Source: Micromonospora sp. NBC_00389 | GTDB lineage: Bacteria > Actinomycetota > Actinomycetes > Mycobacteriales > Micromonosporaceae | Length of the DNA: 64,000 nucleotides | Reading direction: 5' to 3' | Assembly: GCF_036059255.1 (NCBI RefSeq) | Contig: NZ_CP107947.1 | Span: 6,634,001 to 6,698,000 of the forward strand | Shown here: piece after piece, positions 51,204 to 62,252 of the stretch | Position numbering within the stretch: position 1 is the first letter of the stretch | How the letters are laid out: each line of letters starts with the position of its first letter | Made by a program: the position numbers and the translations under genes | The notes under the pieces: generated by a model | Databases searched by the model: none | What the model saw: the letters and a program-made list of their open reading frames with translations, nothing else | What the model was told of the DNA's origin: nothing

Positions 51204-51490
51204 CTAGCTGGCTTGGTGGGCGAAGTCCCAGCGGGTGGCGCCGTATGGCTCGGCGGAGGCCACGCCGACCGCCGTGTGCAGCGTGAGCTGGGTACAGGCG
51301 CCAGGGCGAGGGACCCGCACTGGGCGCGCTGTACGGGGCCGTGAGTGCATCGCCTTCCACCGAAGCCGGCCAGACACCAGTTCGGTAAACGGCCGCCGCA
51401 CGCTCCAAAGTGGAAGGGTCGGTGACCCGACGGGCCTTGCCCTCGATGCCGCGCAAGCGCGGCTTGGACTCCAGCGTCGCCACGATCACC
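51204..51490 (-). pseudogene. C-terminal remnant of a PPOX-family (FMN-binding) protein
   Basis: One frame reads VIVATLESKPRLRGIEGKAR, then VTDPSTLERAAAVYRTGVWP and GDALTAPYSAPSAGPSPW. A second frame continues LHTAVGVASAEPYGATRWDFAH to a stop at 51204. Together they match the C-terminus of pyridoxamine-5'-phosphate-oxidase-like proteins (YGATRW ending). The N-terminal half and one or more bases are missing, so the gene is dead. Confidence 0.6.
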
Positions 51491-51544
51491 TGTTCACCCC
51501 GGCGCCGGCCACGGTGCGTGACGGCCTCCCGCTGAGTGCAGCTG

Positions 51545-51573
51545 TTGACCTCAACGGCTGTTCAACTTCTAGC
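51545..51573 (+). promoter_or_regulatory. Possible promoter of the DHA2 pump
   Basis: TTGACC (51545-51550) and TCTAGC (51568-51573) are separated by 17 nt, with the start codon 52 nt further. The -35 is good and the -10 poor. Confidence 0.35.
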
Positions 51574-51624
51574 GTCTACGACAAGCGGGTCAGTCGCCTG
51601 CGGCCCACAAGACAGGGGAAGTTC

Positions 51625-53274
51625 ATGACGACGATCGCCGCACCCCGCGCGGGCCGGAAAGAGTGGATCGGGCTGGCTGTGCTGGCCATGCCCACGCTGC
51701 TCATCGCGATGGACATGACCGTTCTGCACCTGGCGGTTCCTTCGCTGACCGCGGACTTGCGGCCGAGCACCGCGCAACTGCTGTGGATCATGGACATCTA
51801 CGGGTTCCTGGTCGCAGGCCTGCTCATCACCATGGGAACGCTCGGTGACCGGATCGGGCGGCGCAAGCTGCTGTTGACCGGTGCCGCCGCCTTCGGCGTC
51901 GCCTCGGTGCTCGCGGCGTTCTCCACCAGCGCCGAGATGCTGATCGTGACCCGGGCGCTGCTCGGCGTCGCGGGTGCGACGCTGATGCCCTCCACGCTGT
52001 CCCTGATCCGCAACATGTTCCATGACCCGGCCCAGCGCACTGTCGCCATCAGCGTCTGGATGACCTGCTTCGCGGTCGGCGGCGCCCTCGGCCCGCTGCT
52101 CGGCGGATTCCTGCTCAACTACTTCTGGTGGGGCTCGGCGTTCCTGATCGGCGTCCCCGTCATGGTGGTCCTACTCGTGCTCGGCCCTGTGCTGCTGCCC
52201 GAGCACCGTGACGAGCCCGAGCACCGTGACGAGAAGGCGGGCAAGCTGGATCTGGGCAGCGCCGTGCTGTCCCTGGTCGCTGTGCTGTCCGTGGTCTACG
52301 GCCTCAAGCTGATCGCCGAGGATGGCTTCGGGCTGCTGCCGGTCGCCTTCATGGTGCTGGGTCTGGCCGTCGGGGTCGCCTTCGTCCACCGGCAGCGGAC
52401 GCTCGCCGACCCGCTGCTCGACCTCACGCTGTTCCGTGAGCGCACCTTCAGCGCCTCGGTGGCTCTGCTCACTGTCGGCATCCTGGTGATGGCCGGTTCA
52501 CAGATCTTCACACTGCAGTACCTCCAGCTCGTGCACGGACTCTCCCCGCTGGTCGCCGGCCTCTGGTCGCTGCCCAACGCGGCCGGTCTGATGGCCGGCG
52601 CCATGACGGCCCCGGCCCTCGCCGCGAAGATCCGCCCCGGTTTCGTCATCGCGGGCGGCCTGGTCGTCGCGGCCATCGGACTGGGAATGCTCACGCTGGT
52701 CAGCGCGACAGCGGGTCTGGGCATCCTGGTGACGGCGTCCGCCATCATGGGTGCGGGTCTGGGGCCGATGGCGGCTCTCAGCACCGACCTGATCGTCGGG
52801 GCGGCTCCGCCCGAGCGTGCCGGTGCGGCCTCGGCCATCTCCGAGACGGGCACCGAGCTGGGCGCCGGTCTGGGCATCGCAGTCCTCGGCAGCATCGGCT
52901 TCGGTGTCTACCGCAGCCAGATCGCGGACACCATGCCGGCAGGCGTCGACTCCGAGGCGGCGCACGAGTCGCTCGGTGGCGCGGTGGCGGTGGCCCAAGA
53001 TCTCTCCGGGAAGGCCGGTGACGAACTGCTCACCGTCGCCCGTGAGGCGTTCACCCACGGGCTGCATGTCACGGCCCTCGTCGGCGCCGGCGTCGCGCTC
53101 GTCCTGGCACTGCTGGCAACGGTGCTGCTGCGCGGAGTCAAGCCGGGCGTCAGCGGTCACGACGAGGCCACGGAGGGCACCCCGCAGGCCGGAATCCCGG
53201 ACGGCGCGGCCACGACGCAGACCGCGGCGAACGCCGAAGCGGTGAAGACAGAGACCGCGGTCGGAAGCATCTGA
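51625..53274 (+). CDS. DHA2-family (14-TM) MFS efflux pump 1
   Basis: 549 aa from ATG 51625 (GGGGAA 5 nt upstream). MFS motif A is GTLGDRIGRRKLLLTGA. IAMDMTVLHLAVPSLTADL is the DHA2 opening helix, and GALGPLLGGFLL motif C marks an exporter. About 14 helices; the C-terminal tail after KPGVSGHD is polar and Ala/Glu-rich. It is likely to export cationic or hydrophobic drugs (SmvA/QacA-like). The long in-frame upstream extension covers the PPOX remnant and is not coding. Confidence 0.92.
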   Translation: MTTIAAPRAGRKEWIGLAVLAMPTLLIAMDMTVLHLAVPSLTADLRPSTAQLLWIMDIYGFLVAGLLITMGTLGDRIGRRKLLLTGAAAFGVASVLAAFSTSAEMLIVTRALLGVAGATLMPSTLSLIRNMFHDPAQRTVAISVWMTCFAVGGALGPLLGGFLLNYFWWGSAFLIGVPVMVVLLVLGPVLLPEHRDEPEHRDEKAGKLDLGSAVLSLVAVLSVVYGLKLIAEDGFGLLPVAFMVLGLAVGVAFVHRQRTLADPLLDLTLFRERTFSASVALLTVGILVMAGSQIFTLQYLQLVHGLSPLVAGLWSLPNAAGLMAGAMTAPALAAKIRPGFVIAGGLVVAAIGLGMLTLVSATAGLGILVTASAIMGAGLGPMAALSTDLIVGAAPPERAGAASAISETGTELGAGLGIAVLGSIGFGVYRSQIADTMPAGVDSEAAHESLGGAVAVAQDLSGKAGDELLTVAREAFTHGLHVTALVGAGVALVLALLATVLLRGVKPGVSGHDEATEGTPQAGIPDGAATTQTAANAEAVKTETAVGSI

Positions 53275-55416: not shown

Positions 55417-55430
55417 ATGACCCACGTCAT
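55417..55430. promoter_or_regulatory. Central palindrome of the divergent region
   Basis: ATGAC-CCAC-GTCAT is exactly centred between the two outward-facing TGTTAC boxes, with 10 nt on each side. It may bind a second regulator affecting both promoters. Confidence 0.5.
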
Positions 55431-55440
55431 ACACCCACGC

Positions 55441-55466
55441 TGTTACGGAGCTCGGTCGCCGACGTC
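55441..55466 (+). promoter_or_regulatory. ECF41-type promoter of the efflux pump gene
   Basis: TGTTACG (55441-55447) is followed after 15 nt by CGTC (55463-55466), 68 nt before ATG 55534. It mirrors the sigma-factor promoter. Confidence 0.6.
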
Positions 55467-55533
55467 TTGTGATCGTCAGAACGCCGCACGAACGCTCCGC
55501 GCGGCACGCAACACCACGAGTGAGGACGAAGTC

Positions 55534-57042
55534 ATGGCAACCACGAAAGCGCAGGCCCCGACGGCCGATTCGCGCCGCTGGGCCGCGCTGTTCTTCATAG
55601 GGTTGGCCCAGCTCATGATCGTTCTGGATGGGACGGTCGTGAACATAGCGCTGCCGTCGCTCCAGCGGGATCTGGGGATCTCCGACGGCGACCGGCAGTG
55701 GATCATCACCGCGTACACGCTGGCGTTCGGCAGCCTGCTGCTGCTCGGCGGCCGGATCGCCGACTACACCGGCCGCAAGCGGACCTTCCTGATCGGACTG
55801 CTCGGCTTCGCCGGCGCGTCGGCGCTCGGCGGCGCGGCGGACAACTTCGAGATGCTACTGAGCGCCCGTGCCCTGCAGGGCGGGTTCGCCGCGCTGCTCG
55901 GGCCGTCCGCGCTGTCGCTGCTCACCGTGACGTTCACTCAGCCCAAGGAGCGCGCCAAGGCGTTCGGGATCTGGGGCGCCATCACCGCCGTGGGTGGCGC
56001 GATCGGGCTGCTGGCCGGCGGGGCGCTGACCGACTACCTGGACTGGCGCTGGTGCCTGTACGTCAGCGTCCCGATCGCCCTGATCGCGATGGTCGGCGGG
56101 AACGCGATGCTGGCCGAGTCGCGGAGCGGGGGCAGGGCCCAGTTCGACATCCCGGGCGTGCTGCTGGTGACCGGCGGGCTGGTCGCGATCGTGTACGGCA
56201 CGAGCCAGGCGGAGTCCGACGGCTGGGGCTCGGCGAAGGTCATCGGTCTGCTGGCCGGGGGCGCGGTACTGCTCGCCGCGTTCGCCTTCGTCGAGAGCCG
56301 GGTGTCGCAGCCAATGCTGCCGCCCCGCCTGATCGCCAACCGAACCCGCGGCGGCGCCTATCTGAGCGTGGGACTGGCCATGGTCGGAATGTTCGGGGCG
56401 TTCCTCTTCATGACCTACTACCTGCAGGTCGTCAAGGAATACTCGCCGATCAGGACGGGCGTGGCCTTCCTCCCGATGACCGTGGCGGTCCTGATGTCGG
56501 CCGGCGGGCTCGCCACCCGACTGCTGCCCAAGGTCCCGCCGCGGATGCTGATCGTGCCAGGCATGCTGCTCATCGCCTCCGGCATGCTGTGGCTGCGCAC
56601 CATGGAGATCGACACCGCCTACGTCGAGGGCGTGCTGGTCTCGGGACTCCTACTCGGCTTCGGGGCGGGCATGATCATGCCGGTGGCCTTCAACTACGCC
56701 ACCCACGGCGTCGACCAGCGCGACGCGGGCGTCGCCTCGGCCAGCGTCAACACCCCGCAGCAGATCAGCAGCTCGATCGGAACCGCGCTGCTCAACACCA
56801 TCGCCACCAGCGCGACCGCGGACTACTTGGCCTCGCATGCCTCGCAGGGCAGGAGCCCGGCCTTCGCCAAGGAGGCGATGCTGGAAGGTTTCGTGACAGC
56901 CGGCACCTGGGCCGCGGGGATCCTCCTGGCCGGTGCGCTGATCGTCGCTGTCCTGATGAACACCCCGCGCCCCGAACACCAGGCCGTCACCGAGGACGCC
57001 GAGAGCGCGGGGGGCACCGAGCCGATGCTCGCTCACCCCTGA
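55534..57042 (+). CDS. DHA2-family MFS efflux pump 2
   Basis: 502 aa from ATG 55534 (GAGGA 7 nt upstream). It has AQLMIVLDGTVVNIALPSLQ (DHA2 helix 1), motif A GGRIADYTGRKRTFLIG, and motif C GGAIGLLAGGALTDY. About 14 helices; the EmrB/QacA type of proton-drug antiporter. The divergent ECF41 sigma factor and the promoter layout suggest it belongs to that regulon, so its substrate may be a metabolite or toxin tied to the sigma-factor signal. Confidence 0.93.
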   Translation: MATTKAQAPTADSRRWAALFFIGLAQLMIVLDGTVVNIALPSLQRDLGISDGDRQWIITAYTLAFGSLLLLGGRIADYTGRKRTFLIGLLGFAGASALGGAADNFEMLLSARALQGGFAALLGPSALSLLTVTFTQPKERAKAFGIWGAITAVGGAIGLLAGGALTDYLDWRWCLYVSVPIALIAMVGGNAMLAESRSGGRAQFDIPGVLLVTGGLVAIVYGTSQAESDGWGSAKVIGLLAGGAVLLAAFAFVESRVSQPMLPPRLIANRTRGGAYLSVGLAMVGMFGAFLFMTYYLQVVKEYSPIRTGVAFLPMTVAVLMSAGGLATRLLPKVPPRMLIVPGMLLIASGMLWLRTMEIDTAYVEGVLVSGLLLGFGAGMIMPVAFNYATHGVDQRDAGVASASVNTPQQISSSIGTALLNTIATSATADYLASHASQGRSPAFAKEAMLEGFVTAGTWAAGILLAGALIVAVLMNTPRPEHQAVTEDAESAGGTEPMLAHP

Positions 57043-57171: not shown

Positions 57172-57218
57172 CTTGAACCCGGCCGCGCCGACGGGCGCCG
57201 GCCGGCCCGGGATACTTA

Positions 57219-58206
57219 GACAGACCGTCAAATGGGCGGCGACTGGGCAAGCCAGCGGTTCGGGGTAGCAAACAGGCACGGGCATTGTCGATCATTGGAG
57301 TTCTCTACGCTCTGTGACCGCCAAGGATGCCCGTGCCTGCCGTCCCATCATCGCTGCTGGAGCCCGTCTGGGTCGAGTTCGCCGCGCTGCTGCCTGAGCG
57401 CGGACAGTTTCATCCCGACCACCCGCTGGGCTGCCACCGTCGCCGTATCCCGGACCGGATCGTGGTCGAGCACCTGGTCAACGCCCTGGTGCACGGGTCG
57501 GGCTACGAACGCATCGCCAGTGCCACATGTTCGGACTCCACGATCCGCCGCCGGCTCAAACTATGGTCCGCCGCCGGTGTCGCCGAACAGGTCCACGCCC
57601 TGGCGCTGGCAGCCTACGACCAGATCATCGGCCTGCAGTTGACCGACGTGGCAGCTGATGGATGTATCACGAAGGCGCCGTGCGGCGGGGAGAAAGCCGG
57701 GCCGTCCCCGGTGGACCGGCGCAAAGGCGGCCTGAAACGGTCGGTGGCCACCGATGCCGCTGGCGTGCCGTTAGGCATCGTCTCTGCCGGGGCCAACCGT
57801 CACGACTCGCCGCTACTCGGGCCGACCCTGCATGCGGCTACCGCACAGGTCGGCCCGCACTGGCCCGAGCAGGTCACCGTGCATCTGGACGCCGGCTACG
57901 ACTCCGGCGTGACCCGCTCCCTGCTCGACGGGCTCGGCCTGCACGGCGAGATCGCCCGCAAGGGCGTACCCGCACCGGTGCAGGTCGGCAAGCGGTGGGG
58001 CTGCGAGCGCACCCACTCCTGGATGAACGGCTACGGCAAGCTACGCCGCTGCACCGACCGCGACGGCAAGATCGTCGACTTCTTCCTCTACCTCGCCGCC
58101 GCGTTCGTCACTGTCCGCGCACTGATCCGCGAAGCCCGCACCCGCTACCGGTGGGACACCCGCCCCACCACCCGCCGCCTCAAGTGACGCCTATTGACGG
58201 CCTCTC
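57219..58206 (+). mobile_element. IS5-family insertion sequence
   Basis: 988 bp. Inverted repeats GACAGACCGTCAA and GAGAGGCCGTCAA (2 mismatches in 13) mark the ends, with TTA on both outer sides (57216-57218, 58207-58209) as the target duplication; the identity extends to CTTAGACA, so the exact limits may shift by a few bases. One intact transposase is inside. Its right end is 60 nt upstream of the four-gene operon. Confidence 0.85.
57327..58187 (+). CDS. IS5-family transposase
   Basis: 286 aa. Asp in LTDVAADGCITKAPCGG, Asp in VTVHLDAGYDSG, and Glu in WGCERTHSWMNGYGKLRR form the DDE triad. The N-terminal DUF4096-like region is LLPERGQFHPDHPLGCHRRR. The gene is complete in one frame, so no programmed frameshift is needed. 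Confidence 0.92.
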   Translation: MPVPAVPSSLLEPVWVEFAALLPERGQFHPDHPLGCHRRRIPDRIVVEHLVNALVHGSGYERIASATCSDSTIRRRLKLWSAAGVAEQVHALALAAYDQIIGLQLTDVAADGCITKAPCGGEKAGPSPVDRRKGGLKRSVATDAAGVPLGIVSAGANRHDSPLLGPTLHAATAQVGPHWPEQVTVHLDAGYDSGVTRSLLDGLGLHGEIARKGVPAPVQVGKRWGCERTHSWMNGYGKLRRCTDRDGKIVDFFLYLAAAFVTVRALIREARTRYRWDTRPTTRRLK

Positions 58207-58251
58207 TTAGACACCTGAGTATCCGTCATCAGGCTTCTGGCTCGAAGGTTC

Positions 58252-58265
58252 AATAGTGTGGCCGC
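58252..58265 (+). promoter_or_regulatory. Possible leaderless promoter of the four-gene operon
   Basis: AATAGT (58252-58257) lies 8 nt before GTG 58266, and no ribosome site precedes the gene. The IS5 end lies about 45 nt upstream of this box, so original upstream control sequence may be displaced; no good -35 is seen. Confidence 0.4.
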
Positions 58266-59807
58266 GTGGTGACATTCCTGCGTCGGTGGACCCTACGCTC
58301 CGCGAGCTTCGCCCTGACCTGGCTCTACACGCTCTACCGGATCCATCCGGCGGTGTGGCGGCTCACGGCACGTCAGTACCGTCCGTACATGGGTCGCTTC
58401 GCCCGGCTGCACGCCTGGATGACCTGCCAGTTCGCCGCGATCGACGTGCCCGCGTACGGCGACTTCCTACGCCGCAACCATTGGCGGTTCCGGTGGTTCG
58501 ACCTGTCGTCGTACCCGCAGACGGACAAGCGGTCGTACGTGCAGGCGTACCCGGAGGCGCAGCGTTGTTGGCACGGTGAGATCGAGATCGCCGGCAGCGT
58601 GGTCGATGAGTCGTCGGGCTCGTCCGGTCAGCCGTTCAACTGGATCCGCAGCCGCCGTGAGTTGCGCTCGGTCCACAAGAACCTGGCTGGCTACGCGACC
58701 ATGGTGTTTCCGTCGAAGCGGCGGTTCGTCATCAACGCGTACTCGATGGGCGCCTGGGCCACCGGCACCAACACCGGCATCGCCATGTCCACGATCGCGA
58801 TGGTGAAGAACACCGGGCCGGACCTGCAGAAGATCGTCGACACCCTGTTGTACTTCGGGCCCGGATTCGACTACATCGTCACCGCGTATCCGCCGTTCCT
58901 CAAGCACCTACGCGACAAGCTCGACGCCGAGGACTTCCCATGGGCCGAGTACCGCATCAGCGGTCTGGTCGGTGGTGAGGGGATGACCGAGGCGCTGCGC
59001 GACTACCTGCAGGAGCGCTTCGTCAAGGTGCGCTCCGGCTACGGAGCCAGCGACCTCACCATCGGCATCGCCGGGGAGAGCGACTTCAGTGTCTGGGTCC
59101 GTCGACGACTGCGTACCGACGCCGCACTGCGGACCGCACTGCTCGGCGCCGACGAGCACCGGCTGCCGATGGTCTTTCAGTACAACCCGCTTGAGACGTA
59201 CCTGGAGACCACCCCGGACCATGAGGTGCTCTGCACGATCAACTCGACGGCGGTGCTCAATCCCCGGGTCCGCTACAACATTGGCGACGAGGGCCGGCTG
59301 ATCTCGTACCCGGACGTCCTGGCCGCGATCGCCGACCCCGCGGCGAGGGCCGCCGCGGACCACGCCTGGCAGATCGACCGGATGCGGTTGCCACTGCTCT
59401 TTTTGTACGGCCGCAAGGACAGCACGATCTCGTACATGGGCGCCAACATCTACCCGCAGGACGTCGAATACGGCCTCTACACCGGCAATTCCCAGGCGCA
59501 CCTGCTGCAGAGCTTCTGCCTGCAGTTGACCGAGCGGGCCGACCTGGAGAGCCGGCCGGTCGTCAACCTGCAACTTCGCGAGGGTCTGCCGCTCAGCCCC
59601 GATGAGCGGCGAACCCTCATCCACACCTGCCGCGCGGGGGTTTTGCGTCACCTCGCCGAGGTCAGCCGGGACTTCGCCGAGTCCCTCGCCGAGGACCCGT
59701 CCGCCGCCGATCTGCGGGTGGAGGTCCACGAGTACGGTACCGGCCCATTCGCCGACACCGCCTCCAAGATCAAGAATGTATACCTGGTGAAGGGCGTGAC
59801 GGCGTGA
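58266..59807 (+). CDS. PaaK-like adenylate-forming enzyme
   Basis: 513 aa. The ATP-phosphate loop is ESSGSSGQPF (115-124), the core is GGEGMTE (236-242) and SGYGASD (257-263), the Asp motif NIGDEGRL (339-345), and the hinge LYGRKDSTISYMGANIYP begins near 387. This is the complete set of a phenylacetate-CoA-ligase-type enzyme that activates a carboxylate as an acyl-adenylate. The first ~60 residues are longer and more basic/aromatic than in PaaK. Its stop overlaps the next gene (GTGA). The substrate is unknown. Confidence 0.85.
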   Translation: MVTFLRRWTLRSASFALTWLYTLYRIHPAVWRLTARQYRPYMGRFARLHAWMTCQFAAIDVPAYGDFLRRNHWRFRWFDLSSYPQTDKRSYVQAYPEAQRCWHGEIEIAGSVVDESSGSSGQPFNWIRSRRELRSVHKNLAGYATMVFPSKRRFVINAYSMGAWATGTNTGIAMSTIAMVKNTGPDLQKIVDTLLYFGPGFDYIVTAYPPFLKHLRDKLDAEDFPWAEYRISGLVGGEGMTEALRDYLQERFVKVRSGYGASDLTIGIAGESDFSVWVRRRLRTDAALRTALLGADEHRLPMVFQYNPLETYLETTPDHEVLCTINSTAVLNPRVRYNIGDEGRLISYPDVLAAIADPAARAAADHAWQIDRMRLPLLFLYGRKDSTISYMGANIYPQDVEYGLYTGNSQAHLLQSFCLQLTERADLESRPVVNLQLREGLPLSPDERRTLIHTCRAGVLRHLAEVSRDFAESLAEDPSAADLRVEVHEYGTGPFADTASKIKNVYLVKGVTA

Positions 59808-60250
59808 GGACCACCGACTTCTCCGCCGCGCCTCCGGTGGGCCAGGCGACCGCCATGTTCGTCGGCGCCACCCGCTACCGCGGGCCGCGCTCGATTTTCA
59901 CGCTCACCCGGACGTGGTTCAAGATGGTCCGGCAGATGAGACGGATGGACGGGTACCGGTGGCACACCGTGTATTACCAGTTCCCGTTCACGCTCGGCAC
60001 CATCGCCTTCTTCAGCGACCGCGACGCGCTGCTGAAGTTCGCCCGCAGCCGCCACCACCGCGACCTCATGTGTTGGGTAACCGATCACGGCACGAAGAAC
60101 GCGACCGGTGGCTACATCCGCCTGTACGGTGCCGAGCCCGAGGGTTACAGCAACGGCATCTGGCGCGCTGAGTCGGACGGCATGGCGCACGTACCGACCT
60201 TCACCCCTCTGTCCACCGAGACGTCCGGCCCGCCGGTGCACCGCGCATGA
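59804..60250 (+). CDS. Uncharacterised protein, second gene of the operon
   Basis: 148 aa from GTG 59804. The sequence resembles a dimeric alpha-beta-barrel (ABM-like) protein in pattern: TATMFVGATRYRG, a long basic helix TLTRTWFKMVRQMRRMDGYRWH, then strands VYYQFPFTLGTIAFFSDRDALLKFARSRHHRDLMCWVTDHGTKN. The family cannot be named with certainty. It contains several conserved-looking His/Trp residues. Both ends overlap neighbours by 4 nt, so it must be made with them. Confidence 0.65.
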   Translation: MRTTDFSAAPPVGQATAMFVGATRYRGPRSIFTLTRTWFKMVRQMRRMDGYRWHTVYYQFPFTLGTIAFFSDRDALLKFARSRHHRDLMCWVTDHGTKNATGGYIRLYGAEPEGYSNGIWRAESDGMAHVPTFTPLSTETSGPPVHRA

Positions 60251-61362
60251 GACTGGTTCCCGTGCAGTCGCGGGCCGACCTGCGAGCGTTCGTCGACTTC
60301 CCGCTCCGGCTCCACCCGACAGACCGGTACGTACCCCTGCTGTCATCGGTCATCGCGACCCACCGCCGCACCGCCGAACTGTTCCTGGTCCGCGACCGCA
60401 ACGGCGTCGTCGTGGGGCGCACCAGCATGCACCGCAGCGCGGCCTTCGACACCAAGGTAGGCCCACGGCAGCTGTTCGGGCACACCGAGTTCGTCGATGA
60501 CGACGTCTTCGCCGCCATCATGGACGCCGTCGAGACCAGGACCAACGGCCGACCACTGTTCGGACCGGTGGCACTGCTGCCGAACCAGACCGGCGGGGTG
60601 ATCACCTCCGGCTTCGCCGACCGCGGCTTCGTGGACTCCGCGTGGAACCCCGCCTACTACCCGGACATGTACGAACGGCACGGCTTCCACCGTCGCTTCG
60701 AGGCCGACACCTGGCTGGTCGACCTCAACGGCACGGCCACGGGTACTCCGCTTTCCGCCGGTGCTCCGCTCGCCGCCGACCATGACCACGGGTTCGCCTT
60801 CGACGACGCCCGGATCGCCTCCGAACAGCTCGTCATCCGGCACGGCTCCCGGTGGCACCTGCGCAGCCAACTGCCGATCCTGCGGCGGATGCTCAACGCG
60901 AGCTTCGCGCAACTCGGCTACTACACCGACATCTCCGCCGATCAGCTGGCGGAGCAGACCGACGGCCTCGCGTTCCTGCTCGACGAGGCGCTGCTTCTCT
61001 GGCTGGAGAAGGCCGGCCGACCCGTCGCATTCGTCGTCACCGTGCCGGACATCTCCGAGTACCTCATGAGCGTCGGTGGCCGGCTCGGCGTCATCAATCA
61101 GCTCCGCCTCCTCGCCACCAGCGGCCAGTACCGGAGCGACGCCGTCCTCATCATCAAGGGCACCATGCCCGACGAGCAGGGCAAGGGGTACCTGACGCTG
61201 CTGTCCAGGGAACCGCACCGCAACCTCGCCAGCAACGGGTACCGGACACTGCGCAGCACCTTCGTCGAGCGGACAAACGTCGCCTCGGCCGCTCAGTACC
61301 GGCGCGCCGGCGGGCGCCCACTGCACGGGTACACCTTCTACGAGAGAGGGGCGGCGGCATGA
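60247..61362 (+). CDS. GNAT-like acyltransferase, third gene of the operon
   Basis: 371 aa from ATG 60247. The N-terminal half includes VGRTSMHRS and GFADRGFVDSAWNPAYYPDMYERHGFHRRFEADTW, a GNAT-like segment (YERHGF). The C-terminal half has ALLLWLEKAGRPVAFVVTVPD and a tail with LRSTFVERTNVASAAQYRRAGGRP, also GNAT-like. A tandem or large GNAT fold is likely, as in proteins that transfer acyl groups. The acyl donor could be the product of the ligase (inference). Confidence 0.72.
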   Translation: MRLVPVQSRADLRAFVDFPLRLHPTDRYVPLLSSVIATHRRTAELFLVRDRNGVVVGRTSMHRSAAFDTKVGPRQLFGHTEFVDDDVFAAIMDAVETRTNGRPLFGPVALLPNQTGGVITSGFADRGFVDSAWNPAYYPDMYERHGFHRRFEADTWLVDLNGTATGTPLSAGAPLAADHDHGFAFDDARIASEQLVIRHGSRWHLRSQLPILRRMLNASFAQLGYYTDISADQLAEQTDGLAFLLDEALLLWLEKAGRPVAFVVTVPDISEYLMSVGGRLGVINQLRLLATSGQYRSDAVLIIKGTMPDEQGKGYLTLLSREPHRNLASNGYRTLRSTFVERTNVASAAQYRRAGGRPLHGYTFYERGAAA

Positions 61363-62252
61363 GCTGGGTCGAGCAGTTGCGGGCCAACGAGGCGATCTGC
61401 CGCCGGGCACCGAGCGCGCACAACACGCAGCCGTGGCGACCGGAGTACCACGCAGACAAGATCGTCATCGGCGTCGATCCCGCCCGCCGCCTGCCCGACT
61501 CCGACCCAACCGGGCGTGACCTGGCCCTCGGCATCGGCGCATTCGTCGAGACGTGCCTCATCGTCTCCGCCGAACTTGGCCTCACCATCACCGCGGCACC
61601 CGGTCCGCGACTGATCCCCGCAGCAAATCGGTACGCGACTCCGTTCACGATCGCCGACGTCGAGGCCCGCCGGGTCGCCCGTGGTCCATACGCGCCCGGG
61701 TACGTCGACGCCGCCGTCATCGCCGACCTCGGGCCCGGCATCGCGCACGTTCCGACCCGAGATCTCGCTCCGGATCTGGCGGTCGCCGACCGGTGGCTGT
61801 TCGGTACACCAGCCGTCGCGGTCGAGTTGCGTGACTGGCTGCGCCTCAGCCCACGCCATCCCCGATACCACCTCGACGGGCTCACCGACCGGGCGCTCAC
61901 CCTGTCCCGGTACGAAGCGCGGGTCCTGTCCGCCGCACTTCGCGCGTACCCCGTCACCCGCCGACTGGGCCTTCCGGCGCTGCTGGCCGCCAGCGGCCGC
62001 GACCTGTTGCGCTACGACGGCAGCATCCTGGTTCTACTCGCCGACGGCGACGACCACATCGCCGCAGGCCGGCGTCTTCTGCGTACGTGGCTGACTCTCG
62101 CCCGGCACGGCCTGGCGGTCCATCCACTCAGCCAGCTCATCGACTGCCCGGCGACGGCCAGTCGGCTCGCCGAGCGGGTGGGCGGCGAACCGCTCGCGGT
62201 GTTTCGCCTCGGTCGACCCCTCGCCGAGCCGGTCCGCTCAGCCCGACGCTAG
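61359..62252 (+). CDS. Acg-type nitroreductase-fold protein, fourth gene of the operon
   Basis: 297 aa from ATG 61359. RRAPSAHNTQPWR at residues ~15-27 is the hallmark of Acg/Rv3131-like proteins. RRLPDSDPTGRDLALGIGAFVETCLI and AAGRRLLRTWLTLARHGLAVHPLSQLIDC complete the nitroreductase fold. It probably binds FMN and may reduce a substrate. Its ATG overlaps the GNAT stop (ATGA), completing the operon. Confidence 0.8.
   Translation: MSWVEQLRANEAICRRAPSAHNTQPWRPEYHADKIVIGVDPARRLPDSDPTGRDLALGIGAFVETCLIVSAELGLTITAAPGPRLIPAANRYATPFTIADVEARRVARGPYAPGYVDAAVIADLGPGIAHVPTRDLAPDLAVADRWLFGTPAVAVELRDWLRLSPRHPRYHLDGLTDRALTLSRYEARVLSAALRAYPVTRRLGLPALLAASGRDLLRYDGSILVLLADGDDHIAAGRRLLRTWLTLARHGLAVHPLSQLIDCPATASRLAERVGGEPLAVFRLGRPLAEPVRSARR

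Follow-up and report, generated by a model that had tools for sequence, protein, structure and literature searches.

What might four overlapping genes make if they supply an adenylate-forming enzyme, an acyltransferase and a flavin enzyme, and are they a functional unit at all? The question is raised by genes A to D of Micromonospora sp. NBC_00389, which lie in a 64,000-nucleotide (nt) stretch of contig NZ_CP107947.1 (positions 6,634,001 to 6,698,000; the whole stretch is here called the window). The genome is a single 7.87-Mb contig. We conclude that A to D form a real unit whose members are functionally bound together, and that the cassette is best regarded as a new version of the pathways that combine an acyltransferase, an adenylase and an Acg oxidase, outside the acyl-oxazolone family. 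The four open reading frames (ORFs) are:

58266-59807, plus strand: gene A, PaaK-like adenylate-forming enzyme (513 amino acids)
59804-60250, plus strand: gene B, protein likely to be ABM-like (148 amino acids)
60247-61362, plus strand: gene C, GNAT-type acyltransferase by family signature (371 amino acids)
61359-62252, plus strand: gene D, Acg-type flavin mononucleotide (FMN) oxidoreductase (297 amino acids)

Each gene overlaps the next by 4 nt (A/B, GTGA at 59804; B/C, ATGA at 60247; C/D, ATGA at 61359). A first-pass annotation of this DNA had proposed a single compact operon with such overlaps at all three junctions, and the coordinates and junction letters agreed on re-reading; its remark that the operon encodes neither a carrier protein nor a ketosynthase was also borne out. 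Other parts of that interpretation, namely a flavin reductase fold for D, an uncharacterised B and the lack of a match to a described pathway, call for revision. Since gene overlaps by themselves are frequent in actinomycetes, conservation was taken as the test of the unit.

In a first sample of 41 genomes, comprising the window's own and 40 relatives, the ligase A was found at 60% identity or more in 11 genomes, two relatives with ligase identities of just 29% and 35% being set aside from the count; B, C and D (the last at 50% or more) were likewise each found in 11. All four genes were adjacent and in order in 10 of the 41, the window's own included, and neither B nor C gave more than one match per genome. 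In five named Micromonospora species the ligase is 93–95% identical. One genome (G037) carried A and B only, a contig end falling inside the cassette. Another relative of the same genus (G023) held 5'-truncated C and D pieces without A or B at two contig ends (C30 24040-24956 and C311 1-342; loci L151 and L152), probably a decaying cassette or else an assembly gap.

A wider sample was obtained by scanning two peptide patterns over 84,980 species genomes, which returned 226 ligase relatives. The best 80 of these, spanning 25 named genera of actinobacteria, were taken as loci; as their ligases are all at least 57% identical, the gene sets of more distant relatives may differ. By tblastn, A-B-C-D occurred in order at 77 loci, A, B and D at two, and A, B and C at one, where a profile search added a D cut by a contig end, bringing the loci with all four genes to 78. 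Both loci without C belong to Streptacidiphilus, and each of these genomes carries C elsewhere (L149 8551-9717 and L150 8381-9547), with no match to A, B or D within 18.0 and 14.9 kb around it. The genes flanking this lone C are homologous to those flanking the full cassette in seven Embleya/Streptomyces loci (by eye, ribosomal protein L9 and a MATE-type transporter). Thus C occupies the slot of a full cassette, indicating that the operon was split in Streptacidiphilus with no part lost. The annotation had proposed to ask whether the four genes lie apart in most genomes; among the 80 loci they lie together in all but these two, which keep C at another place. Because the flanking genes vary between families, chance linkage is not a fair explanation. 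In a phylum-wide sample of 198 genomes, a profile built from 11 close B sequences detected the B family once, in the window's own genome, so the cassette is thinly spread though wide in range.

Several other settings for the cassette were ruled out. A plasmid-borne cassette was rejected: a search of 72,556 plasmid records gave ligase matches (E up to 1e-20) in just two, and one of those two is as large as a chromosome (11.85 Mb). An anti-phage defence system was discarded since none of the four proteins matched a PADLOC model at E up to 0.01. As for a fifth cassette gene, an alpha/beta-hydrolase family lay near the cassette in 14 of the 80 loci; since its orientation is mixed (7 of the 14 on the plus strand) and the remaining neighbours are family-specific, no fifth member was accepted. 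The hydrolases, esterase/lipase-like by eye, were seen at L077, L078, L081-L084, L086, L090-L092, L098, L099, L107 and L118.

At 15 of the 80 loci cassette genes are fused, each fusion being one stop-free frame: B-C in seven (Pseudoclavibacter, five; Microbacterium, two), C-D in six (Brevibacterium, five; Nesterenkonia, one) and B-C-D in two (both Serinicoccus, with only part of B included). On a tree of the unfused ligase, the label must change, by gain or loss, twice for B-C, four times for C-D (three of them forced by well supported branches) and once for B-C-D, for a total of eight changes when the Streptacidiphilus split is counted. The ligase tree mostly tracks bacterial families, with exceptions in Microbacteriaceae. 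In other genomes of the window's genus the cassette ligase is just 60–62% identical, which goes against simple descent and makes transfer within the group likely. Across 78 loci the identity-distance matrices of A to D correlate (r 0.65–0.84), and none of 500 permutations gave as high a value for any pair.

These fusions bear on the possibility that the cassette serves to degrade or detoxify an aromatic acid or a nitro compound. PaaK and nitroreductase folds are each found in such routes, as is known of these families. Nevertheless, transport or ring-cleavage genes would be expected in that case and no fifth gene is kept across families; moreover B, C and D fuse, and D falls in the Acg group, not among the classical nitroreductases. 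We regard a catabolic role as very unlikely.

What the four proteins are was judged from profiles and conserved residues. A profile of A (A7) matched the PaaK structure 2y4o (E 4.9e-7), a 9-row profile (A1) having matched none, and the match to TIGR02155 was weak and below the curated rule (E 4.9e-5; 22 bits against a cut-off of 646). Invariant in 44 sequences are DES.GS.G, GASDL.IG, GR.D.T.S..GAN.YP.D, residues R336, Y337, G340, D341 and E342, and the C-terminal lysine K503, which, by analogy with the family, we take to be adenosine triphosphate (ATP)-binding and catalytic motifs. By profile and motif content A is an adenylate-forming enzyme of the PaaK (phenylacetate-coenzyme A (CoA) ligase)-like branch.

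Such an enzyme might act first, converting a fatty or aromatic acid into an adenylate (AMP) ester or CoA thioester; C would then use this to acylate an amino acid or amine, with B and D tailoring the amide and no ring closure by A. PaaK-like enzymes are typically aryl-CoA ligases, as family knowledge has it, and A matches PaaK structures, while C retains the residues of a GNAT acyl-CoA loop. In addition, one bacterial adenylating enzyme, a GH3-like protein, builds an N-acyl amino acid lipid from a free fatty acid (PMC12493201). A locus in another phylum points the other way. On plasmid 1 of Gemmatirosa kalamazoonensis (L153 6225-9302), an Acg-type gene is followed by a 35%-identical ligase, and a divergent ABM gene there matches PF03992 above the cut-off, with no C-family match within about 8 kb. 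The pairing of this ligase with an Acg-type gene, seen at one locus, is what chiefly inclines us to let A act together with D, and we consider an order with A first possible if rather doubtful. The same locus suggests that ligase, oxidase and ABM protein are a wider core, and the trio is possibly ancestral. By eye, its Acg-type gene has a Tat-like leader.

For C, no Pfam model matched the window protein itself; the GNAT signal emerged only across the family, where, at E up to 1, FR47 was matched by 31 of 46 members (best 8e-6) and Acetyltransf_1 by 29 of 46 (best 4e-7). C is recognisable as a GNAT in its C-terminal half, in which P308, G312 and G314 are invariant and Q311 is present in at least 90% of members; we take these residues to be the GNAT acyl-CoA loop. 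On these profile matches and the conservation of the loop, C is classed as a GNAT-type acyltransferase. No solved relative was found by sequence below E 0.05, and a tandem GNAT was rejected because the halves are dissimilar (probability 0.6%).

The C-terminal half of C may also resemble the YghO/bacterial ceramide synthase GNATs, a likeness on which a literature search gave nothing relevant. A membrane aminolipid or ceramide-like lipid would cast C as a long-chain N-acyltransferase and A as the activator of a fatty acid, and actinobacterial Acg-group oxidases often lie near lipid genes (PMC10404671). This product seems very unlikely to us, as the cassette has no constant neighbour from one family to the next, although no search aimed at a sphingoid-base gene was made.

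B had been listed as an uncharacterised protein, but it is not wholly featureless: 47 of 50 members of its family match PF13826 (Monooxy_af470-like; E up to 1, best 9e-5), and 16 of 50 match PF03992. The window protein matches Monooxy_af470-like at E 5e-4 and lies below the membership cut-offs of both models (20.8 bits against 25 for Monooxy_af470-like; 13.7 against 23.1 for ABM). Its invariant residues are M1, D5, F6, F19, G21, G50, Y57, P61, G65, F70, A80, H85, W91, G103 and R106. From these family matches the fold is likely to be ABM-like, presumably a dimeric alpha/beta barrel. Several loci from Microbacteriaceae, Cellulomonadaceae and Sanguibacter (L089, L092, L094, L106 and L118 among others) have a B with an internal duplication, the first copy being divergent.

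D matches NF047509 (Acg/Rv3131) at E 3.7e-40 with 138 bits, under the curated cut-off of 199, and is by sequence a divergent relative of that family rather than a member by the curated rule; its profile (A8) matched the Acg structure 2ymv (E 3.3e-18). The 49 rows of the D family group in a single clade (support 100/99) that excludes ten TrzS-type domains, Acg and four paralogues of its own genome, although some long branches leave its deeper placing unsure. The genome carries four more Acg-type genes outside the cassette, at 3390513-3394696, 4569131-4570007 and 6581047-6581952. Characterised members of the Acg group of flavin-dependent oxidases are TyzC and the oxidase domains of OxzB/TrzS, which desaturate N-acyl amino acids or their oxazolones, O2 being used in the Tyz and Trz desaturations (PMC10404671, PMC12856293). 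By analogy with TyzC and TrzS, the role of an O2-using flavin oxidase/desaturase is more probable for D than that of the flavin reductase named in the first-pass annotation (PMC10404671, PMC12856293).

In making acyl-oxazolones, the TyzC and OxzB/TrzS oxidases have as partners an N-acyltransferase and a ThiF cyclase that uses ATP (PMC10404671, PMC12856293), and the cassette can be set beside each such system. TyzABC, which makes tyrazolone in Mycobacterium tuberculosis, shares with it an N-acyltransferase, ATP-dependent carboxylate activation and an Acg-type flavin oxidase in one small cluster; however, TyzB is of ThiF type whereas A is of PaaK type, and the available text describes no counterpart of B (PMC10404671). 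The tryptazolone system TrzAS has the same three chemical roles in fused domains, with desaturation by an Acg-type domain, but C is not TrzA-like and D lies in a separate clade (PMC12856293). OxzAB of Pseudoalteromonas rubra likewise combines an acyltransferase, an adenylating cyclase and an oxidase; its cyclase is a ThiF protein, and no ABM-like protein is described in the accounts given of it (via PMC10404671, PMC12856293). Clusters for N-acyl dehydrotyrosines (stieleriacines, kyonggic and thalassotalic acids) hold an N-acyl amino acid synthase, an adenylating protein and a nitroreductase-family gene, also with short or overlapping junctions, but they use ThiF, and the words 'ligase' and 'monooxygenase' are absent from the main text available (PMC12479983). 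The OlsH/OlsI ornithine lipid system shares an ATP-dependent adenylating enzyme that yields an N-acyl amino acid, but it consists of a GH3-like enzyme and an alpha/beta-hydrolase, with no oxidase mentioned in the part available (PMC12493201).

Our sequence comparisons covered TrzA-like and TrzS-like proteins, with TyzA and TyzC outside them. None of the 11 cassette genomes searched had a TrzS-type ThiF-oxidase fusion above the curated cut-off. As the cassette has no ThiF, its ligase is PaaK-like and C is not TrzA-like by sequence profile, membership in the acyl-oxazolone family (OxzAB/TyzABC/TrzAS) was rejected. The earlier statement that the operon matches no described pathway holds in that no description of the four-gene set was found in the open literature (in brief searches, with subscription papers mostly outside them, which is not proof of novelty), but it overlooked acyl-oxazolone biosynthesis as a close functional analogue.

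Once its carboxylate is activated, an N-acyl amino acid tends to close to an oxazolone; the part of ThiF could therefore be taken by an adenylating enzyme, whatever its fold. The PaaK-type ligase may thus stand in for ThiF, and we keep the oxazolone analogy as a hypothesis. Guided by it, we tentatively propose, at somewhat less than even chances, that the cassette is a self-contained four-enzyme route to a small N-acylated, carboxylate-activated and desaturated metabolite, for which we infer the following substrates, order of steps and product. C would use acyl-CoA to acylate the nitrogen of an amino acid or of an amine. A would adenylate a carboxylate; the simplest candidate is the one on the N-acyl amino acid, which on activation would cyclise to an oxazolone, the closure that ThiF carries out in OxzB/TyzB/TrzS. 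With FMN and O2, D would remove two hydrogens, and B might carry out a further oxidation or aid ring closure. Taken in its strict form, the analogy would make the cassette a second, independently evolved oxazolone (azlactone) synthetase, with a PaaK-type enzyme in place of ThiF, a GNAT unrelated to TyzA/TrzA, and an ABM-like oxidation; this we think unlikely.

Several observations weigh against the oxazolone analogy. PaaK relatives usually yield CoA thioesters. The absence of a C-family match near the Gemmatirosa ligase also counts here. When C was compared with five TrzA-like proteins, a set named by position upstream of TrzS-like genes, the hhalign probability was 0.5% (0.1% and 0.8% for the halves). 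D scores 138 bits with the Acg/Rv3131 model and 38 with that of Rv1355c (TrzS), whereas the oxidase partner of an oxazolone pathway would be of the FDO-A group; Acg and Rv3131 belong to FDO-B, which is stated to have no part in oxazolones (PMC10404671). In one of the 11 cassette genomes, the ThiF portion of the TrzS model (positions 34-366) was matched below the cut-off, with 420 bits. Lastly, the available descriptions of oxazolone pathways include nothing equivalent to B.

Upstream of the ligase, an inverted repeat, TACTCAG-N5/6-CTGAGTA, occurs in part of the Micromonosporaceae and in Streptacidiphilus, and in the window it is interrupted by an insertion sequence (IS):

57213-57218, no strand: TACTTA, remnant of the left repeat arm, severed by the IS
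57219-58206, plus strand: IS5-type element of 988 bp inserted in the upstream repeat (exact ends by eye)
57327-58187, plus strand: transposase ORF (DDE_Tnp_1/DUF4096) within the IS5-type element
58215-58221, no strand: CTGAGTA, right repeat arm, conserved in relatives
58254-58259, plus strand: TAGTGT, −10-like, 6 nt before the GTG start and 32 nt past the repeat

With at most one mismatch, the repeat was found at 15 of the 28 Micromonosporaceae/Streptomycetaceae loci (L048-L075) and at none of the 52 others, compared with a mean of 0.005 and a largest value of 1 in shuffled sequences; the consensus was drawn from some of the loci tested, and the shuffles preserve base composition only. Twelve genomes were selected because they have the repeat; in each of them it occurred at a single place, with the ligase start adjoining, and a reversed pattern was found in none. 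Chance expectation is below one per genome by a rough estimate, so the single place argues only against a large regulon, which was rejected. A cassette-specific upstream site probably controls the cassette in Streptacidiphilus and in some of the Micromonosporaceae. A TAGYGT-N6/7-GTG arrangement recurs in Micromonospora, Paractinoplanes and Symbioplanes relatives and is lacking in L053, L070 and L071; the 32-nt spacing from repeat to TAGYGT is kept in L050, L056 and L060 (counted by eye). From these elements we infer a possible leaderless promoter with an activator-type site upstream of A. The window's genome has no intact copy of the repeat. The IS has 17-nt terminal repeats (82%) and a TTA duplication (57216-57218 and 58207-58209, read by eye); since it splits the repeat, control of the cassette may be changed in this strain.

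Upstream of the IS, two MFS-type transporter genes (51235-53274 and 55417-57042) were seen by eye, with sigma-factor-like and MarR-like genes between them. None of these was seen beside the cassette in the nearest relative examined (L015).

The cassette represents a compact pathway of about 4 kb, without a carrier protein, in at least 25 named actinobacterial genera. Because the usual markers of non-ribosomal peptide synthetases and polyketide synthases are absent, marker-based genome mining could easily miss it; being small, and fused in some natural loci, it lends itself to a direct test by expression. If the analogy holds, the acylate-activate-desaturate logic would have been built twice from unrelated activating enzymes. 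Were the strict form of it true, these actinobacteria would make an undescribed class of lipid-like signals under a regulator with one dedicated site per genome.

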